Source: Pseudooceanicola endophyticus
GTDB lineage: Bacteria > Pseudomonadota > Alphaproteobacteria > Rhodobacterales > Rhodobacteraceae
DNA: 64,000 bases
Direction of reading: 5' to 3'
Assembly (NCBI RefSeq): GCF_018760365.1
Contig: NZ_JAHIAB010000001.1
Coordinates: 513,813-577,812, forward strand
Positions within the stretch are counted from its first letter, which is position 1; each line of letters begins with the position of its first letter. Positions 8,875 through 16,139 of the stretch are shown in pieces. The translations under genes and the position numbers were made by a program. The notes beneath the pieces are model-generated. The model worked only from the letters and a program-made list of their open reading frames with translations, did not search any database and was not told the origin of the DNA.

Positions 8875-10821
8875 ATGTCCCTGATTTCCCTCACATTCCC
8901 TGACGGCAATAAGCGAGAATTCGCCGAAGGCATTACTGCTGCCGCCGTCGCAAGTGAAATTTCCAGTTCACTTGCAAAAAAAGCGATCAGTGCAACGGTC
9001 AACGGAGCCCACTGGGATCTGCAATGGCCGATCACCGAGGATGCCTCCATCGCGATCCACACGATGAAGGATGACGAACAGGCCTATGAGCTGATCCGTC
9101 ACGACCTCGCCCATATCATGGCCCGCGCCGTCCAGGAGATCTGGCCGGACGTGAAGGTCACCATCGGTCCCGTCCGCGACAAGGGCTGGTTCTACGATTT
9201 CGACCGTGCCGAGCCCTTCACCCCCGAGGATCTGGGCACCATCGAGGCGAAGATGAAAGAGATCATCAACGCCCGGGAACCCGTCCGCACCGAGGTCTGG
9301 GAACGCGCCGATGCCCTGCGCTACTACGAAGAGCGCGGCGAGCCCTACAAGATCGAGCTGGTCAACCGCATCCCCGGCGATGAGCCGCTGCGGATGTACT
9401 GGCACGGCGACTGGCAGGATCTCTGCCGCGGCCCGCACCTTCAGAACACCGGGCAGGTTCCGGCGGATGCCTTCAAGCTGACCCATGTGGCCGGCGCCTA
9501 CTGGCTGGGCGACAGCACGCGCCCGATGCTGCAACGCATCTACGGCGTGGCCTTCAAGAACCGTCAGGAGCTGAAGGCCTGGGAAACCATGATGGAGGAG
9601 GCCGCCAAGCGCGACCACCGCAAGCTGGGTCGCGAGATGCAGCTTTTCCACATGCAGGAAGAGGCCCCGGGCCAGGTCTTCTGGCATCCGAACGGCTGGA
9701 CCATCTACACCACGCTGCAGGACTACATGCGCCGCAAGCAGCGCGCCGGCGGCTACGTCGAGGTCAACACGCCCCAGGTGGTCAACCGCAAGCTCTGGGA
9801 GGCCTCGGGCCACTGGGGCAACTACCAGGAAAACATGTTCATCGTCGAAGTGGACGAGGATCATGCCCGCGAAAAGACCATCAACGCGCTGAAGCCGATG
9901 AACTGCCCCTGCCACGTGCAGGTGTTCAACCAGGGCCTGAAGTCCTACCGCGACCTGCCGCTGCGCATGGCCGAGTTCGGTTCGTGCAACCGCTACGAAC
10001 CCTCGGGCGCGCTGCACGGCATCATGCGGGTGCGTGGCTTCACCCAGGACGACGCGCATATCTTCTGCACCGAGGCGCAGATCGAGGCCGAGACGGCAAA
10101 GTTCATCGCCTTCCTGGCCGACATCTACAAGGACCTGGGCTTTGTCGACTGGACGATCAAGCTCTCGACCCGGCCCGAAAAGCGCATCGGCACCGAGGAA
10201 AGCTGGGACCGCGTCGAGGCCGCCCTTGGCAATGCCTGCAACCACGCCGGCTACGAGTTCGAGATCCAGGAGGGCGAAGGCGCCTTCTACGGTCCCAAGC
10301 TGGAATTCACGCTGACCGATGCGATCGGGCGGGAATGGCAGTGCGGCACGCTGCAGGTGGACCCGAACCTGCCGGAACGTCTGGACGCGACCTTCATCGG
10401 CCAGGACGGCGACAAGCACCGCCCCGTGATGCTGCACCGCGCCGTGCTGGGCTCTTTCGAGCGCTTCATCGGCATCCTGATCGAGAACTCCGAAGGCAAG
10501 CTGCCGGTGTGGCTGGCGCCGCGCCAGGTGGTCGTCGCGGCCATCGTCTCGGACGCCGATGACTACTGCCTTGAGGTCGTCGAGGCGCTGAAGGCCCGGG
10601 GCGTGCGCGCCGAGGCCGACCTGCGCAACGAGAAGATCAACTACAAGGTCCGCGAGCATTCCGTCGGCAAGGTGCCCTACATCCTGGCCTGCGGCATGAA
10701 AGAGGTCGAGGAACGCACCGTCTCCACCCGCCGCCTTGGCGAGAAGCAGACGAAGACCCAGACGCTGGACGAGATCGTCGCGCAGCTGGCCCGCGAGGCC
10801 ATGGCCCCCGACATGCTGTAA
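8875..10821 (+). CDS. thrS: Threonyl-tRNA synthetase
   Basis: Class II aminoacyl-tRNA synthetase charging tRNA-Thr. The 648 residues include the N-terminal TGS domain (about 1-60) and a shortened editing/second additional domain with [11 protein letters not shown] and the catalytic-site-like [10 protein letters not shown]. The class II core has motif 2 ([22 protein letters not shown]), the zinc ligands MNCPCH and the histidines of the core, and motif 3 near [14 protein letters not shown]. An anticodon-binding domain ends the protein. A strong GAGGAGG ribosome-binding site precedes ATG 8875. A terminator-like hairpin lies 62 bases after the stop, inside the next gene. Confidence 0.97.
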
Positions 10822-12174: not shown

Positions 12175-12267
12175 CCTTGCCTCCCGGATTGCCAGCCCGA
12201 GGCTAGCAGGGTGCGGTGCCACCGGGCGGGAAATCATCGCCGTCCGCATCACGCCCGCGTGATCTGC

Positions 12268-12918
12268 CTACCAGCGCAGCCATTTCGCCCCCGCCAGGGC
12301 CCCGATCCCGGCGCCAAGGGCGATCCCGCCGGAATACCAGACGCTGTAGAACAGCGGCGAATCCTCGGTGCAGAAGGTCGAATAGACCACCGTCGCCAGC
12401 GCCCCCGCCGCCAGCCCCGCCAGCGCGCCGGTGCGCACCGGGCGCACCGGCGCCCCCCGGCGCAGCGCCAGGATCAGCCCCGCCGTGACCGGCAGCGACA
12501 GGGTGGCGATGGCCGGCATGCAAAGCTGGATCGAATGGCCCAGGAAATAGCCCAGACGCATGTCCGCCGGGGTTTGCGCGAAGGCCAGCCCGAACAGCGC
12601 CAGCGCCGCCAGCGGCACCGCCCAGATCAGCCGCGCCGGCAGGCCCGGGCGCCGCCCCGGTCGGGCCGAGCGCCGCGCCAGCACCAGCGCCAGCCCCGCC
12701 AGCACCGCCGGCAGCAGCGTCTTGGCAACCACCAGCGGGGTTTTCAGCGCCTCCAGCAGCCCCGGACGCGGCCCCAGCGCGGCAAAGTAAAGCGCCACGC
12801 TGACCAGCAACCCGACCAGCAGGAAGGGCAGAAAGCGCGTCTCGACCCCGGCATCGGGGGCGGGCGCGGGATCCTGCGCCAGGCGGGCAATCAGCTCTTC
12901 GGTGTCCATCTCAGTCAT
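12268..12918 (-). CDS. nrsF: NrsF-family (DUF1109) anti-sigma factor
   Basis: Inner-membrane negative regulator of an ECF sigma factor. The 216 residues start with a short cytoplasmic segment carrying an ELIARLAQD helix, then six hydrophobic helices. Two cysteines lie at 133 ([10 protein letters not shown]) and 183 (STFCTEDSP). In Caulobacter NrsF, two conserved cysteines spaced the same way are needed for the metal-stress response, so these are the likely sensor residues. The gene overlaps the upstream sigma gene by eight bases, indicating coupled translation. It is divergent from the bufferin-type operon, as in known sigma-F loci. Confidence 0.88.
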
Positions 12919-13474
12919 CCTTCGCTTCGGGCTTTGCTTCGGGACCGCGCGCGATCCGGCGCAGCCGCGTCATCGCGCGGTGATAGGCCACGCGCACCGC
13001 CCCCTCGCTCAGCCCCAGCCGGGCGCCGACCTCTCCGGCGCTCTCGCCCTCGACCCCCAGCGATCGGACGATGCCGGCCGAGCGGGTGTCGATCCCCTCC
13101 AGCAGGCGGCCCAGATCGCGCGCGGCGGTCGGGTCGCCCAGGGTGTCGTCCACCAGCCCCTCGGCGTGATCCTCCAGCGGATCGGTCCGCCGCAGCCGCC
13201 GCGCCCGCAGCGCATCCGCCGCCTTGTAGCGGGCAATGGCATATAGCCAGGGGGTCACCGGCGCGTCCTCGTTCCAGGTGTGGCGCTTGGCATGCAGCCC
13301 CAGAAGCACCTCCTGCACGATATCCTCGACCGCGGCCTCGTCGCCACGGGCGCGGGCCCGCACGACGGTCCGGATCGCCGGCGTCACCTCGCTCAGGAAG
13401 CGCGCATAGGCCGCACCATCGCCGCGGCGGGCGCGGCGCAACAGTTCTCCCCAATGCATGTTCCTGTCCGTCAT
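12911..13474 (-). CDS. sigF: ECF sigma factor paired with NrsF (SigF-like)
   Basis: RNA polymerase sigma factor with only sigma regions 2 and 4. Region 2 contains [19 protein letters not shown] and [17 protein letters not shown]; region 4 has the helix-turn-helix [26 protein letters not shown] 13474 follows GGGAGAGAC. An alternative ATG at 13459 follows AGGA and is favoured if the promoter at 13486-13511 is used, because the transcript would then begin only a few bases before 13474. The sigma gene, NrsF and the divergent buf operon together indicate a metal- or oxidant-responsive regulon. Autoregulation is predicted from its promoter. Confidence 0.9.
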
Positions 13475-13485
13475 CTGTCTCTCCC

Positions 13486-13511
13486 TTCGGACGGGCACCG
13501 GGAAACGTTAC
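13486..13511 (-). promoter_or_regulatory. Predicted ECF sigma-F promoter of the sigma gene
   Basis: On the minus strand GTAACG (13511-13506), exactly 16 bases, then CGAA (13489-13486). This is the same GTAAC-N16-CGAA form as at the divergent buf promoter and resembles the Caulobacter sigma-F consensus. The transcript would start near 13479. Confidence 0.7.
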
Positions 13512-13558
13512 AGCCTTTCGACGATTTTTCCCAAATCAATCACCAATCCGTGAACCGC

Positions 13559-13584
13559 GTAACGATGCCGCCCCCCGGTACGAA
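13559..13584 (+). promoter_or_regulatory. Predicted ECF sigma-F promoter of the bufferin-type operon
   Basis: GTAACG (13559-13564), exactly 16 bases, then CGAA (13581-13584), about 50 bases before the bufA start codon. It matches the promoter of the sigma gene on the other strand in both boxes and in spacing. Confidence 0.75.
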
Positions 13585-13635
13585 GAGGGGAATATCGGGC
13601 CGCCACGACGGCGCCCGCCAACGGAGGATACCCGA

Positions 13636-13944
13636 ATGACCACCAAGACCACCGCCCTGACGCTGGCCACCGCCCTTGCCGCCGCCTTCGCCGCCCAGGC
13701 TGTTCCCGCCGCTGCCGCAGGGCAGGAAAAATGCTTTGGCGTCGCCATGGCCGGCAAGAACGACTGCGCCGCCGGCCCCGGCACCACCTGCGCCGGCACC
13801 TCGAAGGTCGATTACCAGGGCAATGCCTGGAGCTTCGTCGAAGAGGGCAAGTGCACGCAGATCTCCCTGCCGGCGGGGAAGGACGGCATGGCACGCATGG
13901 GGTCGCTTACCGCGCTGGAACGTGACCTGCCGATGGAAGGCTGA
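13636..13944 (+). CDS. bufA: DUF2282 bufferin-type precursor peptide (BufA1-like)
   Basis: Secreted, ribosomally made peptide of 102 residues. A signal peptide spans about residues 1-28 (basic start, long alanine-rich core, AAA-G cleavage region). The mature part has exactly four cysteines at 33, 44, 52 and 73 in the DUF2282 pattern [21 protein letters not shown] and GKCTQ. In bufferins these cysteines are modified by a DUF692 enzyme, giving a copper-binding metallophore. Ribosome-binding site GGAGGA lies seven bases upstream. The long open frame that runs into this gene from 11473 is read-through, so this start is the real one. Confidence 0.9.
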
Positions 13945-13999
13945 CGCGCCCCGGGGGGGGCGGACACCGCGCCCCCCTTTCCCGGAAGGAGGAGATCCC

Positions 14000-14848
14000 A
14001 TGTTCGACCGCACCGCCCCCGCCCTGCCCGCGCGTCCCGGCGTCGGCTTCAAGCCGCAGCATTACGAGGCCCTGATGGCCGATCCCGGCCCCGTCGCCTG
14101 GCTTGAGGTCCATGCCGAGAACTACATGGGCGCCGGAGGCCGGCCGCTGGCGCAATTGCAGGCGCTGGCCGCGCGCTTTCCGGTTTCGGTCCACGGGGTC
14201 GGCCTGTCGATCGGCGGTGAGGGGCCGCTGGAGCACGCCCACCTGGACCGGTTGCGCGGGCTGGTCGATCACCTGCCCGCCGCGCGCTTCTCCGAACACC
14301 TGGCCTGGTCAAGCCATGGCGGCGCCTTCCTGAACGACCTGCTGCCGCTGCCCTACACGGCGCGCACGCTGGCACGCGTCTGCGCCCATGTCGATCAGGT
14401 GCAGCAGGCGCTTGGCCGCCAGATGCTGCTTGAGAACCCCTCCTCCTACCTGGCCTTCACCGAAAGCGAGATGCCCGAGACCGCCTTCCTGGGCGAGGTC
14501 GTGCAGCGCACCGGCTGCGGGCTGCTGCTGGACGTGAACAATGTCTTCGTTTCCGCCGTCAACCTTGGGTTCGAACCGCGCGCCTATATCGACGCCCTGC
14601 CCCTTGGCGCCGTCGGAGAGCTGCATCTGGGCGGCCATGACAGCGACAGCGACGATCAGGGCCGCCCGCTGCTGATCGACAGCCACGGCGCGCCGGTGGC
14701 CGATCCGGTCTGGGCGCTGCTGGATCACGTGCTGTCCCTGACCGGGCCGAAACCGCTGCTGATCGAATGGGACACCGATGTGCCCGACTGGCCCGAGCTG
14801 CGCGCCGAGGCCGCCCGCGCGGCCCTTGCGCTGGAGGCGGTGCGATGA
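14000..14848 (+). CDS. bufB: DUF692 multinuclear non-heme iron oxidative enzyme (MNIO, BufB)
   Basis: TIM-barrel enzyme of the MNIO family that oxidatively modifies cysteines of the precursor peptide using two or three irons. Of 282 residues, likely metal ligands are seen at H38 (EVHAENYM), H65 (SVHGVGLS), H100 (SEHLAW), E145 (LLENPSSY), D179 (LLDVNNVF), H209 and H213 (ELHLGGH), D227/H229 (IDSHG) and E256 (LIEWDTD), all in the family order. The start is ATG 14000, just after AAGGAGGA. It follows bufA by 55 bases and overlaps bufC by four (ATGA). No ligand appears to be missing. Confidence 0.93.
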
Positions 14849-15591
14849 GTGAGGGCACACTTCTGAGCGCCCTGCGCGACCCCGAGGGCGTCCTGCCGTC
14901 CGGGCTGCACGATGGCCGGGGCGGGCCTGCCACGCGCCGCTTTGCCGTCTATCGCAACAATATCGCCGTCTCGCTGCGCGAGGCCATCGTCACCGGCTTT
15001 CCGACTCTGCTGGCGCTGCTGGGGCCGCGCAACATGGCACAGCTGGCCCGGGCCTTCGTGCAGGGCCATCCCCCGACCTCGCCGGTGCTGCTGACCTACG
15101 GCACGGAGCTGCCCGCCTTCCTCGACGGTTTCGCGCCGCTCGCCACCCTGCCCTACCTCGCCGATGCCGCGCGGCTGGACCTGGCGTTGCGGCGCGCCTA
15201 CCACGCCGCCGATGCCGATCCGATCCCCCCCGAAGCCCTTGGCCTGCTGAGCCAGACCGACCTTGGCCGGGCCGTGCTGATCCTGGCCCCGGCGGTGCAG
15301 GTGCTGCGTTCCAACTGGCCGCTGCACGACATCTGGCGCCTCGCGCATCAGGACGGCCCGCCGCCCGGAGCGCAGGCACAGGACCTGCTGATCACCCGGG
15401 CGCATTTCGACCCTGCCTGCCATGCCCTGTCCCCCGGCGCCGCCGCCTTCCTTCAGGCCTGTCTGGAGGGCCGTAGCGCCGCCGAAGCGCTGGAGCAGGC
15501 ACGCACGGAGGCCCCCGCCTTCGACCTGAGCGCCCTGCTGGCCCTGCTTCTGGCCCAGCGCGCCCTCTGCACGCTGGAGATCCCGCAATGA
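14845..15591 (+). CDS. bufC: DUF2063 MNIO partner protein (BufC)
   Basis: Partner protein that recognises the precursor leader and presents it to the MNIO enzyme. The 248 residues carry the DUF2063 hallmark [17 protein letters not shown] near residue 33, followed by FPTLLALLG and an alpha-helical N-terminal domain. The C-terminal half, with [13 protein letters not shown] and [18 protein letters not shown], fits the second domain of the family. It is coupled to bufB and the DoxX gene by ATGA overlaps, so the three proteins are probably made in fixed proportion. Confidence 0.9.
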
Positions 15592-16139
15592 CCGATCCGA
15601 CCGCCCCGCTGGCCCGCCTCTCGCCCCTGCTGCCGCTGCTGGCGCGGTTGCTCTTTGTCGCGATCCTGCTGCCCTACTACTGGAACTCGGCCCTGACCAA
15701 GATCGGCAGCGGGCCGTTCACCCCCTCTGCCGGAGCCTATGCGCAGATCTTCCCCCGCGCCTTCGAGGCAGCGGGTTACGATCCCGACAAGCTGTCGCTG
15801 GTGTCGCATCTGGTCGTGCTGGCCGGCACCTGGGCCGAGTTCGCCCTGCCCGCGCTGCTGCTTATGGGTCTGCTGACCCGGCCCGCCGCGCTGGCGATGA
15901 TCGGCTTCATCGTGGTTCAGACCCTGACGGATCTCTATGGCCACGGGCTGATCGCCCAGCCCGGCGTCCCGGGCCAGTGGTTCGACCGCGCGCCGGATGC
16001 TTTGCTGGACCAGCGCGCGCTCTGGGTGTTTCTGCTGGCCGTACCGGCCCTGCGTGGCGGCGGCGCGCTGGCGCTGGACCAGCTGCTGTTCAGAAGTGCG
16101 CCTTCTCCTCGTCCGGGCGCCCGGCCAGCACCGCCATGA
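15588..16139 (+). CDS. bufD: DoxX family membrane protein of the buf operon (BufD)
   Basis: A 183-residue DoxX protein with four hydrophobic helices: about 16-36, 78-95, 98-118 and 142-160. ARLLFVAILLPYYWNSALTK and GTWAEFALPALLLMGL are typical. DoxX proteins often accompany DUF692/DUF2063 genes; a role in redox balance or peptide handling at the membrane is suspected but unproven. It overlaps bufC by four bases and its 3' end overlaps the convergent small membrane gene by 50 bases. Confidence 0.85.
   Translation: MTDPTAPLARLSPLLPLLARLLFVAILLPYYWNSALTKIGSGPFTPSAGAYAQIFPRAFEAAGYDPDKLSLVSHLVVLAGTWAEFALPALLLMGLLTRPAALAMIGFIVVQTLTDLYGHGLIAQPGVPGQWFDRAPDALLDQRALWVFLLAVPALRGGGALALDQLLFRSAPSPRPGARPAPP

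Follow-up and report, generated by a model that had tools for sequence, protein, structure and literature searches.

Bufferins, their maturation by MNIO and DUF2063 proteins, and the association of Buf1 bufferin clusters with SigF and NrsF have been published before (PMC12452194; PMC13097082; here and below, statements on the literature refer to the available part of each paper), as have a thiooxazole bufferin and the roles of its inner and outer cysteines (PMC12452194). In Caulobacter vibrioides the bufferin 1 cluster (SigF-NrsF/CC3254-CC3257) contains DUF2282, DUF692, DoxX, SigF and NrsF genes in a divergent layout with a SigF promoter on both operons (PMC3511200; PMC8224329). The orthologous operon and its promoter are SigF dependent (PMC3511200), copper induces the SigF regulon and a sigF mutant is copper sensitive (PMC8224329). 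Two related systems of the extracytoplasmic function (ECF) type ECF16 share part of this organization. The RpoE7-EcfR7/SMb20530-20527 locus of Sinorhizobium meliloti has DUF692 and DUF2063 genes in a divergent layout, with RpoE7 promoters that conform to GTAAC...CGAA on both sides (PMC6180224). In Brucella, the BcrS-AbcS/bcrXQP system consists of a sigma factor and an NrsF-type anti-sigma factor with two cysteines, and both divergent operons have promoters that follow a rule of the same type, GTAA-N14-21-CGAA (PMC8315932). A locus of this type lies in a stretch of 64,000 nucleotides of Pseudooceanicola endophyticus (assembly GCF_018760365.1, contig NZ_JAHIAB010000001.1, positions 513,813 to 577,812), hereafter called the window, where nrsF-sigF is divergent from bufA-bufB-bufC-doxX. 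This locus is a Buf1 bufferin cluster. Its gene set belongs to a copper-handling peptide system that is already known; what the comparison adds is a second promoter element, the palindrome CAC-N6-GTG, which is common to the bufferin operons of both regulatory classes, those with and those without a linked sigF.

The features of the locus are as follows.

12268..12918, minus strand: nrsF, NrsF-family anti-sigma factor with conserved Cys133 and Cys183 (Pfam NrsF, 1.5e-54; both Cys in 32/32 rows)
12911..13474, minus strand: sigF, ECF sigma factor, ATG at 13474 (Pfam Sigma70_r2, 1.9e-10; Sigma70_r4, 6e-7)
13486..13511, minus strand: sigF promoter GTAACG-N16-CGAA (pattern count in the window)
13540..13553, no strand: operator-like palindrome TCAC-N6-GTGA, 5 nt 5' of the bufA -35 (conservation in place)
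13559..13584, plus strand: bufA promoter GTAACG-N16-CGAA (pattern count in the window)
13636..13944, plus strand: bufA, DUF2282 Buf1 precursor of 102 aa with core Cys 33/44/52/73 (Pfam DUF2282, 4.5e-23)
14000..14848, plus strand: bufB, MNIO (former DUF692) maturase (Pfam MbnB_TglH_ChrH, 1.4e-103; NCBIfam equivalog)
14845..15591, plus strand: bufC, DUF2063 partner protein (Pfam DUF2063, 3.4e-21)
15588..16139, plus strand: doxX, membrane protein (Pfam DoxX, 1.7e-5)

Results

Conservation of a second element at the bufA promoter

The palindrome TCACCAATCCGTGA is located at 13540-13553, directly 5' of the bufA -35. TCAC-N6-GTGA has two sites in the 64 kb, a number that is not significant by itself (expected 0.82; two or more sites in 21 of 100 shuffles). 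The support for the element comes from conservation in place and not from the window count. For the comparison, removal of duplicates from 162 loci with a bufA match left 128 distinct promoter regions, among which related sequences remain. A divergent sigF and nrsF were linked to 35 of these, 92 had neither, and one with sigF only (L193) was excluded; 16 of the 35 sigF-linked loci had been chosen for carrying NrsF, the sample is non-random and the class sizes are not frequencies.

When spaced 4-mers were counted without bias over the 200 nt that precede bufA, TCAC-N6-GTGA was present in 26/35 sigF-linked promoters, beside GTAA-N18-CGAA (also 26/35). The top pair in the sigF-less promoters was CACG-N5-GTGA (55/92). 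Each of these two pairs, TCAC-N6-GTGA and CACG-N5-GTGA, contains the palindrome CAC-N6-GTG. Over 260 nt it was found in 32/35 sigF-linked and 81/92 sigF-less promoters, while base-shuffled counterparts gave means of 2.8 and 6.2 and maxima of 9 and 14 promoters, respectively (100 shuffles). When the sets were thinned to less than 70% ungapped identity, the spacing of 6 was present in 29/32 sigF-linked and 68/80 sigF-less promoters, whereas none of the other spacings between 0 and 13 occurred in more than 8 and 20, respectively. The distance from the end of CAC-N6-GTG to the GTAA of the SigF promoter was 6 nt in 24 sigF-linked cases and 5-7 nt in 29. In the sigF-less consensus a weak 'cTA' resembling a -10 is visible some 32 bp away from the centre of the proximal palindrome, and the sigF-less palindromes may be activator sites that replace a -35. 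From this pattern of conservation a second DNA-binding regulator is predicted to act at the bufA palindrome. No published description of the CAC-N6-GTG element was found in the openly licensed literature, most subscription journals being outside the scope of that search.

The neighbourhood of the sigF-less operons did not point to a regulator gene. Genes of at least 90 aa within 5 kb on either side were clustered for 80 loci, and clusters present in at least 8 loci were considered, so that a smaller or unlinked factor would escape. The commonest regulator-like families occurred in just 12/80 (LysR-like) and 11/80 (ArsR-like) loci; labels of neighbouring genes, here and below, were given by reading. 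Other clusters were read as thrS, a cold-shock protein, thyX and others. A thrS-like family is near the operon in 74/80 neighbour sets, and the window has a thrS-like gene at 8875-10821.

In a sample of 385 genomes of the class, which includes 5 of this family and hence has little bearing on the family itself, the palindrome combined with a SigF promoter was found in three genomes, this one, G447 and G625; the stretches examined of the latter two contained no bufA. The match in G447 (L257) lies beside a YHS-like secreted protein and that in G625 (L258) beside genes for an ECF sigma factor and a CcdA-like protein. The window itself holds a second palindrome, TCACGCCCGCGTGA, at 12249-12262, about 75-88 nt 5' of the likely ATG (12174) of an EamA-type transporter gene behind nrsF. 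Its stricter form, TCACG-N4-CGTGA, has this single site in the 64 kb (expected 0.08; at least one site in 7 of 100 shuffles).

The SigF-type promoter pair

GTAACG-N16-CGAA occurs twice in the 64 kb, once for each divergent operon and facing each other (0.05 expected; none of 100 shuffles reached 2). This form had been read off the window beforehand, which makes its count test partly circular; the looser GTAAC-N16-18-CGAA returned the same two sites (0.18 expected; 1 of 100 shuffles reached 2). Among the 35 sigF-linked loci, from which the window was excluded, the looser form was directed toward bufA in 26, toward sigF in 28 and both ways in 20. The corresponding numbers were 5 (toward bufA), 0 (the opposite way) and 0 (both) for the 91 of the 92 sigF-less loci that have at least 900 nt upstream. 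The reversed control gave 0 in both sets. In four of the five sigF-less exceptions the promoters are Ruegeria-type sites about 226 nt 5' of the start codon. The fifth (L176) has its promoter closer to the start codon, at a distance of some 76 nt, and an NrsF fragment is found on another contig of that genome. The matched promoter pair, together with a promoter presence that tracks sigF linkage in relatives, supports control of the locus by SigF-NrsF. The initial annotation, made from the sequence alone, had assigned it to a dedicated ECF sigma/anti-sigma pair. The SigF promoters before both operons bear this out as to the pair, whereas 'dedicated' is too strong, since the conserved second element at bufA is shared with sigF-less operons.

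Outside the bufferin loci, a SigF-type promoter pair was seen in the family genome G267 (L269) at 10398 and 10488; genes for cytochrome b561 and a molybdoprotein are located at a greater distance.

A tandem form of the element in sigF-less promoters

A GTG half-site exactly 15 bp 5' of CAC-N6-GTG was present in 64/92 sigF-less promoters versus 0/35 sigF-linked ones. Searched as TSAC-N6-GTG-N3-CAC-N6-GTGA-N-T, this tandem form was matched 58 times, in 56 of the 248 genomes of the family, and the reversed control gave 0. The matches represent 56 distinct places, of which 53 are at a bufA; in one of the latter (L195) the tandem lies between the bufA match and bufB instead of 5' of that bufA. Of the three other places, one (L251, genome G175) is 5' of a Met-rich secreted protein accompanied by genes for cytochrome b561 and a molybdoprotein, one (L252) is 5' of a secreted MsrA and one (L253) is within a methyltransferase-like reading frame. 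By our own arithmetic, which assumes an even base composition, 3 to 4 matches are expected by chance in 248 genomes. The three non-bufferin matches are therefore at about chance level, and the link to methionine is just a hint.

Relatives of the L251 molybdoprotein were found in 9/248 genomes at E 1e-40 or better. Among their short loci only that of the query genome itself had the tandem, besides L261 with a looser match; L261 and L263 also contained single palindromes. In longer stretches around seven of the nine (G175, which is L251, and G192 excepted) no tandem was present, even when 2 mismatches were allowed. This makes it less likely that methionine repair is a general regulon of the second factor.

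Genome G000 had no match to the tandem pattern. The same-genus genome G001 (L255) has a bufA promoter with the tandem form at one mismatch, and neither a sigF nor an nrsF match was found within 15 kb, nor an NrsF above the cut-off in its genome. In this reading the type of control is swapped even within a single genus.

Distribution in relatives

In all five comparisons made, a genome of the genus had an exact match of 1000 bases to a locus of a named Pseudooceanicola, which makes the assignment to this genus very probable. DUF2282 was found in 20 of 22 genomes of the genus and NrsF above the cut-off in 19 of 22. In the family sample the numbers were 178/248 for DUF2282 and at least 36/248 for NrsF, the latter being a lower bound as at most 12 candidates were scored per genome. 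The bufferin operon is thus widespread, and NrsF is confined to a minority of the sampled family genomes. In a BufB tree, which covered the 19 of 35 sigF-linked loci with a near-full BufB (20 sigF rows including the window) and placed L193 in neither group, the sigF label has to change 7 times, and well-supported branches force just 2 of these changes. In the same-genus locus L256 (G021) sigF abuts a shortened bufB and no bufA match is present, which reflects either a deletion or an assembly join. Two separate DUF2282 precursor matches are present in each of L022, L081 and L247, so that tandem bufferin precursors exist in some relatives.

Gene identities and conserved residues

The initial annotation had described the six genes, their divergent layout and ATGA overlaps joining bufB, bufC and doxX. 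All six frames are open and lie where described, the six proteins score above the curated Pfam cut-offs for their own families, and both overlaps are read in the sequence (bufB/bufC at 14845-14848, bufC/doxX at 15588-15591). NrsF scored 185 bits (cut-off 26.8). For SigF the alternative region-4 model Sigma70_r4_2 stayed narrowly under its own cut-off (24.7 versus 25.7). BufB passes the NCBIfam equivalog 'MNIO family bufferin maturase' (NF050167; 373 bits, cut-off 310), and BufA and DoxX had no NCBIfam match. For sigF the start at ATG 13474 is preferred over GTG 13498, because the -10 element sits at 13486-13489.

The core cysteines C33, C44, C52 and C73 of BufA are invariant in 129/129 rows (window included in this and the following alignments). 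Its leader is hydrophobic and Ala-rich and ends in VPAAAA; by eye it resembles a leader of the Sec type. In BufB, H65, H100, E145, D178, N181, H209, D227, H229 and E256 are invariant in 113/113 rows. Given this conservation and the MNIO fold, these nine residues are candidate metal ligands. BufB was also compared with the Protein Data Bank entries 3BWW, 8HCI ('DUF692 family protein') and 7DZ9 (MbnB). Eight of the nine residues face an identical residue in each of these entries. The ninth, H65, does so in 3BWW and 8HCI, while the alignment with 7DZ9 begins past it. The earlier claim that the enzyme ligands and the four core cysteines are intact is accordingly upheld by conservation and not by a structure of this BufB.

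D258 is invariant as well and aligns with an Asp in 3BWW and 7DZ9 and with a Gln in 8HCI. By analogy it would be the catalytic base equivalent to Asp249 of FonB (PMC13097082). Thr259 stands where FonB has a Phe beside that Asp, which fits the reported non-conservation of this Phe in DUF2282 enzymes (PMC13097082).

Discussion

Proposed mechanism and points against it

Taken together, the findings very probably describe a working Buf1 cluster for a bufferin, a ribosomally synthesized and post-translationally modified peptide of the captophorin class, which is switched by SigF-NrsF, yields a copper-chelating modified peptide and is served by a second regulator. In this mechanism SigF would be held by the membrane protein NrsF until a periplasmic stress, most likely excess copper or another thiol-reactive metal, hits Cys133 and Cys183 of the latter. 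Released SigF would then use the facing pair of GTAACG-N16-CGAA promoters to transcribe both bufABC-doxX and the operon that encodes SigF itself, and the second DNA-binding regulator would act at TCAC-N6-GTGA beside the bufA -35. BufBC would convert the inner cysteines 44 and 52 of BufA to 5-thiooxazoles, the outer cysteines 33 and 73 would form a disulphide, and the exported peptide would chelate copper in the periplasm. The genes, open frames, promoter motifs and conservation of the element are present as described above; the modification chemistry, metal binding, metal trigger and NrsF signalling are those suggested by the homologues, and the second regulator is a prediction.

Several observations weigh against parts of this mechanism. 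Given the second element, control of bufA by SigF alone is doubtful. With the looser promoter rule GTAA-N17-20-CGAW the contrast between the classes becomes weaker (bufA side 28/35 versus 13/91; sigF side 28 versus 2, both sides 22 versus 1). A wider SigF regulon is not visible, since GTAACG-N15-17-CGAA has 13 places in the genome and the reversed control has 19; of 11 matches outside the locus, 5 (L005, L009, L010, L011 and L012) were inspected for their gene context and no regulon claim is drawn from them. NrsF misses the NCBIfam equivalog 'anti-sigma-F factor NrsF' (91 bits versus 300) and is therefore filed as a member of the NrsF family, not as a strict equivalog, and BufC misses the HvfC equivalog (57 bits versus 142). 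Finally, the orthologous genes of S. meliloti were not induced by H2O2, Cd or chromate (PMC6180224).

The nature of the inducer and of the second element

The same peptide and switch could have hypochlorous acid (HOCl) or another thiol/methionine oxidant as natural inducer, metal binding being a side effect or only one part of the function. HOCl activates the Brucella ECF16 pair, which has promoters of the same type and whose target is the operon of a Met-rich peptide and Msr-type genes (PMC8315932); in Caulobacter, too, the targets of SigF include a homologue of the msrPQ operon (PMC8224329). The promoter pair of L269 lies between an NrsF gene and msrB-, ccdA- and msrA-like genes in a genome that is not among the DUF2282-positive ones, and two of the three non-bufferin tandem matches (L251 and L252) precede genes for a Met-rich secreted protein and MsrA. 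However, the Caulobacter regulon is induced by copper and loss of sigF causes copper sensitivity (PMC8224329), SigF-dependent genes in that organism were not induced by generators of reactive oxygen species (PMC3511200), and the non-bufferin tandem matches are as few as chance predicts, with none around the seven L251 molybdoprotein relatives. An oxidant is considered less likely than a metal as the natural inducer, but HOCl is a serious alternative.

That the palindrome at the -35 is a Rhodobacteraceae-specific extension of the SigF promoter instead of a regulator site would fit its near-fixed distance to GTAA in sigF-linked loci, but is quite improbable, as the sigF promoter of the window has no palindrome beside its own -35, sigF-less loci have CAC-N6-GTG within 160 nt in 80/92 cases versus 20/92 or fewer for each of the other spacings between 0 and 13, and 64/92 of them carry the tandem form.

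A regulator site is thus the preferred reading of the palindrome. Judged from the promoter sequences, it seems rather likely that an undescribed transcription factor binding TCAC-N6-GTGA runs the bufferin operons of Rhodobacteraceae, in many genera by activation from two tandem sites that would replace the -35 and in some lineages, including this one, with SigF-NrsF beside one site; in places it may also serve methionine-repair genes. With the SigF-NrsF switch placed beside one TCAC-N6-GTGA site, two stress inputs would meet at bufA. The presence of one shared DNA element in both promoter classes makes the question of wiring testable, as one conserved metallopeptide operon is placed under an ECF sigma/anti-sigma switch or, seemingly, under another factor.

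Comparison with known systems

The Caulobacter cluster shares the DUF2282, DUF692, DoxX, SigF and NrsF genes and the layout, and the two key cysteines of its NrsF, C131 and C181 (PMC3511200), correspond to C133 and C183 here. Its regulon, however, includes a second related cluster and the msrPQ-like operon (PMC8224329), whereas MNIO, DUF2282, DUF2063 and NrsF each have one match in the present genome, all at this locus. For the S. meliloti RpoE7 locus no second promoter element is mentioned in the available part of the source (PMC6180224), in contrast to the palindrome found here. The Brucella system differs in its target, the Met-rich peptide and Msr-type operon, and in its inducer, HOCl, and the available part of its description mentions no bufferin (PMC8315932). 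The sigF-less loci of Rhodobacteraceae, e.g. in Ruegeria and Shimia, share the bufABC-doxX operon, the CAC-N6-GTG geometry and the thrS-like neighbour (74/80 sets) with the locus studied here. They differ from it in that sigF-nrsF is not linked, the SigF promoter is restricted to 5/91 loci and the palindrome is part of a tandem in 64/92 promoters versus 0/35 of those with a linked sigF.

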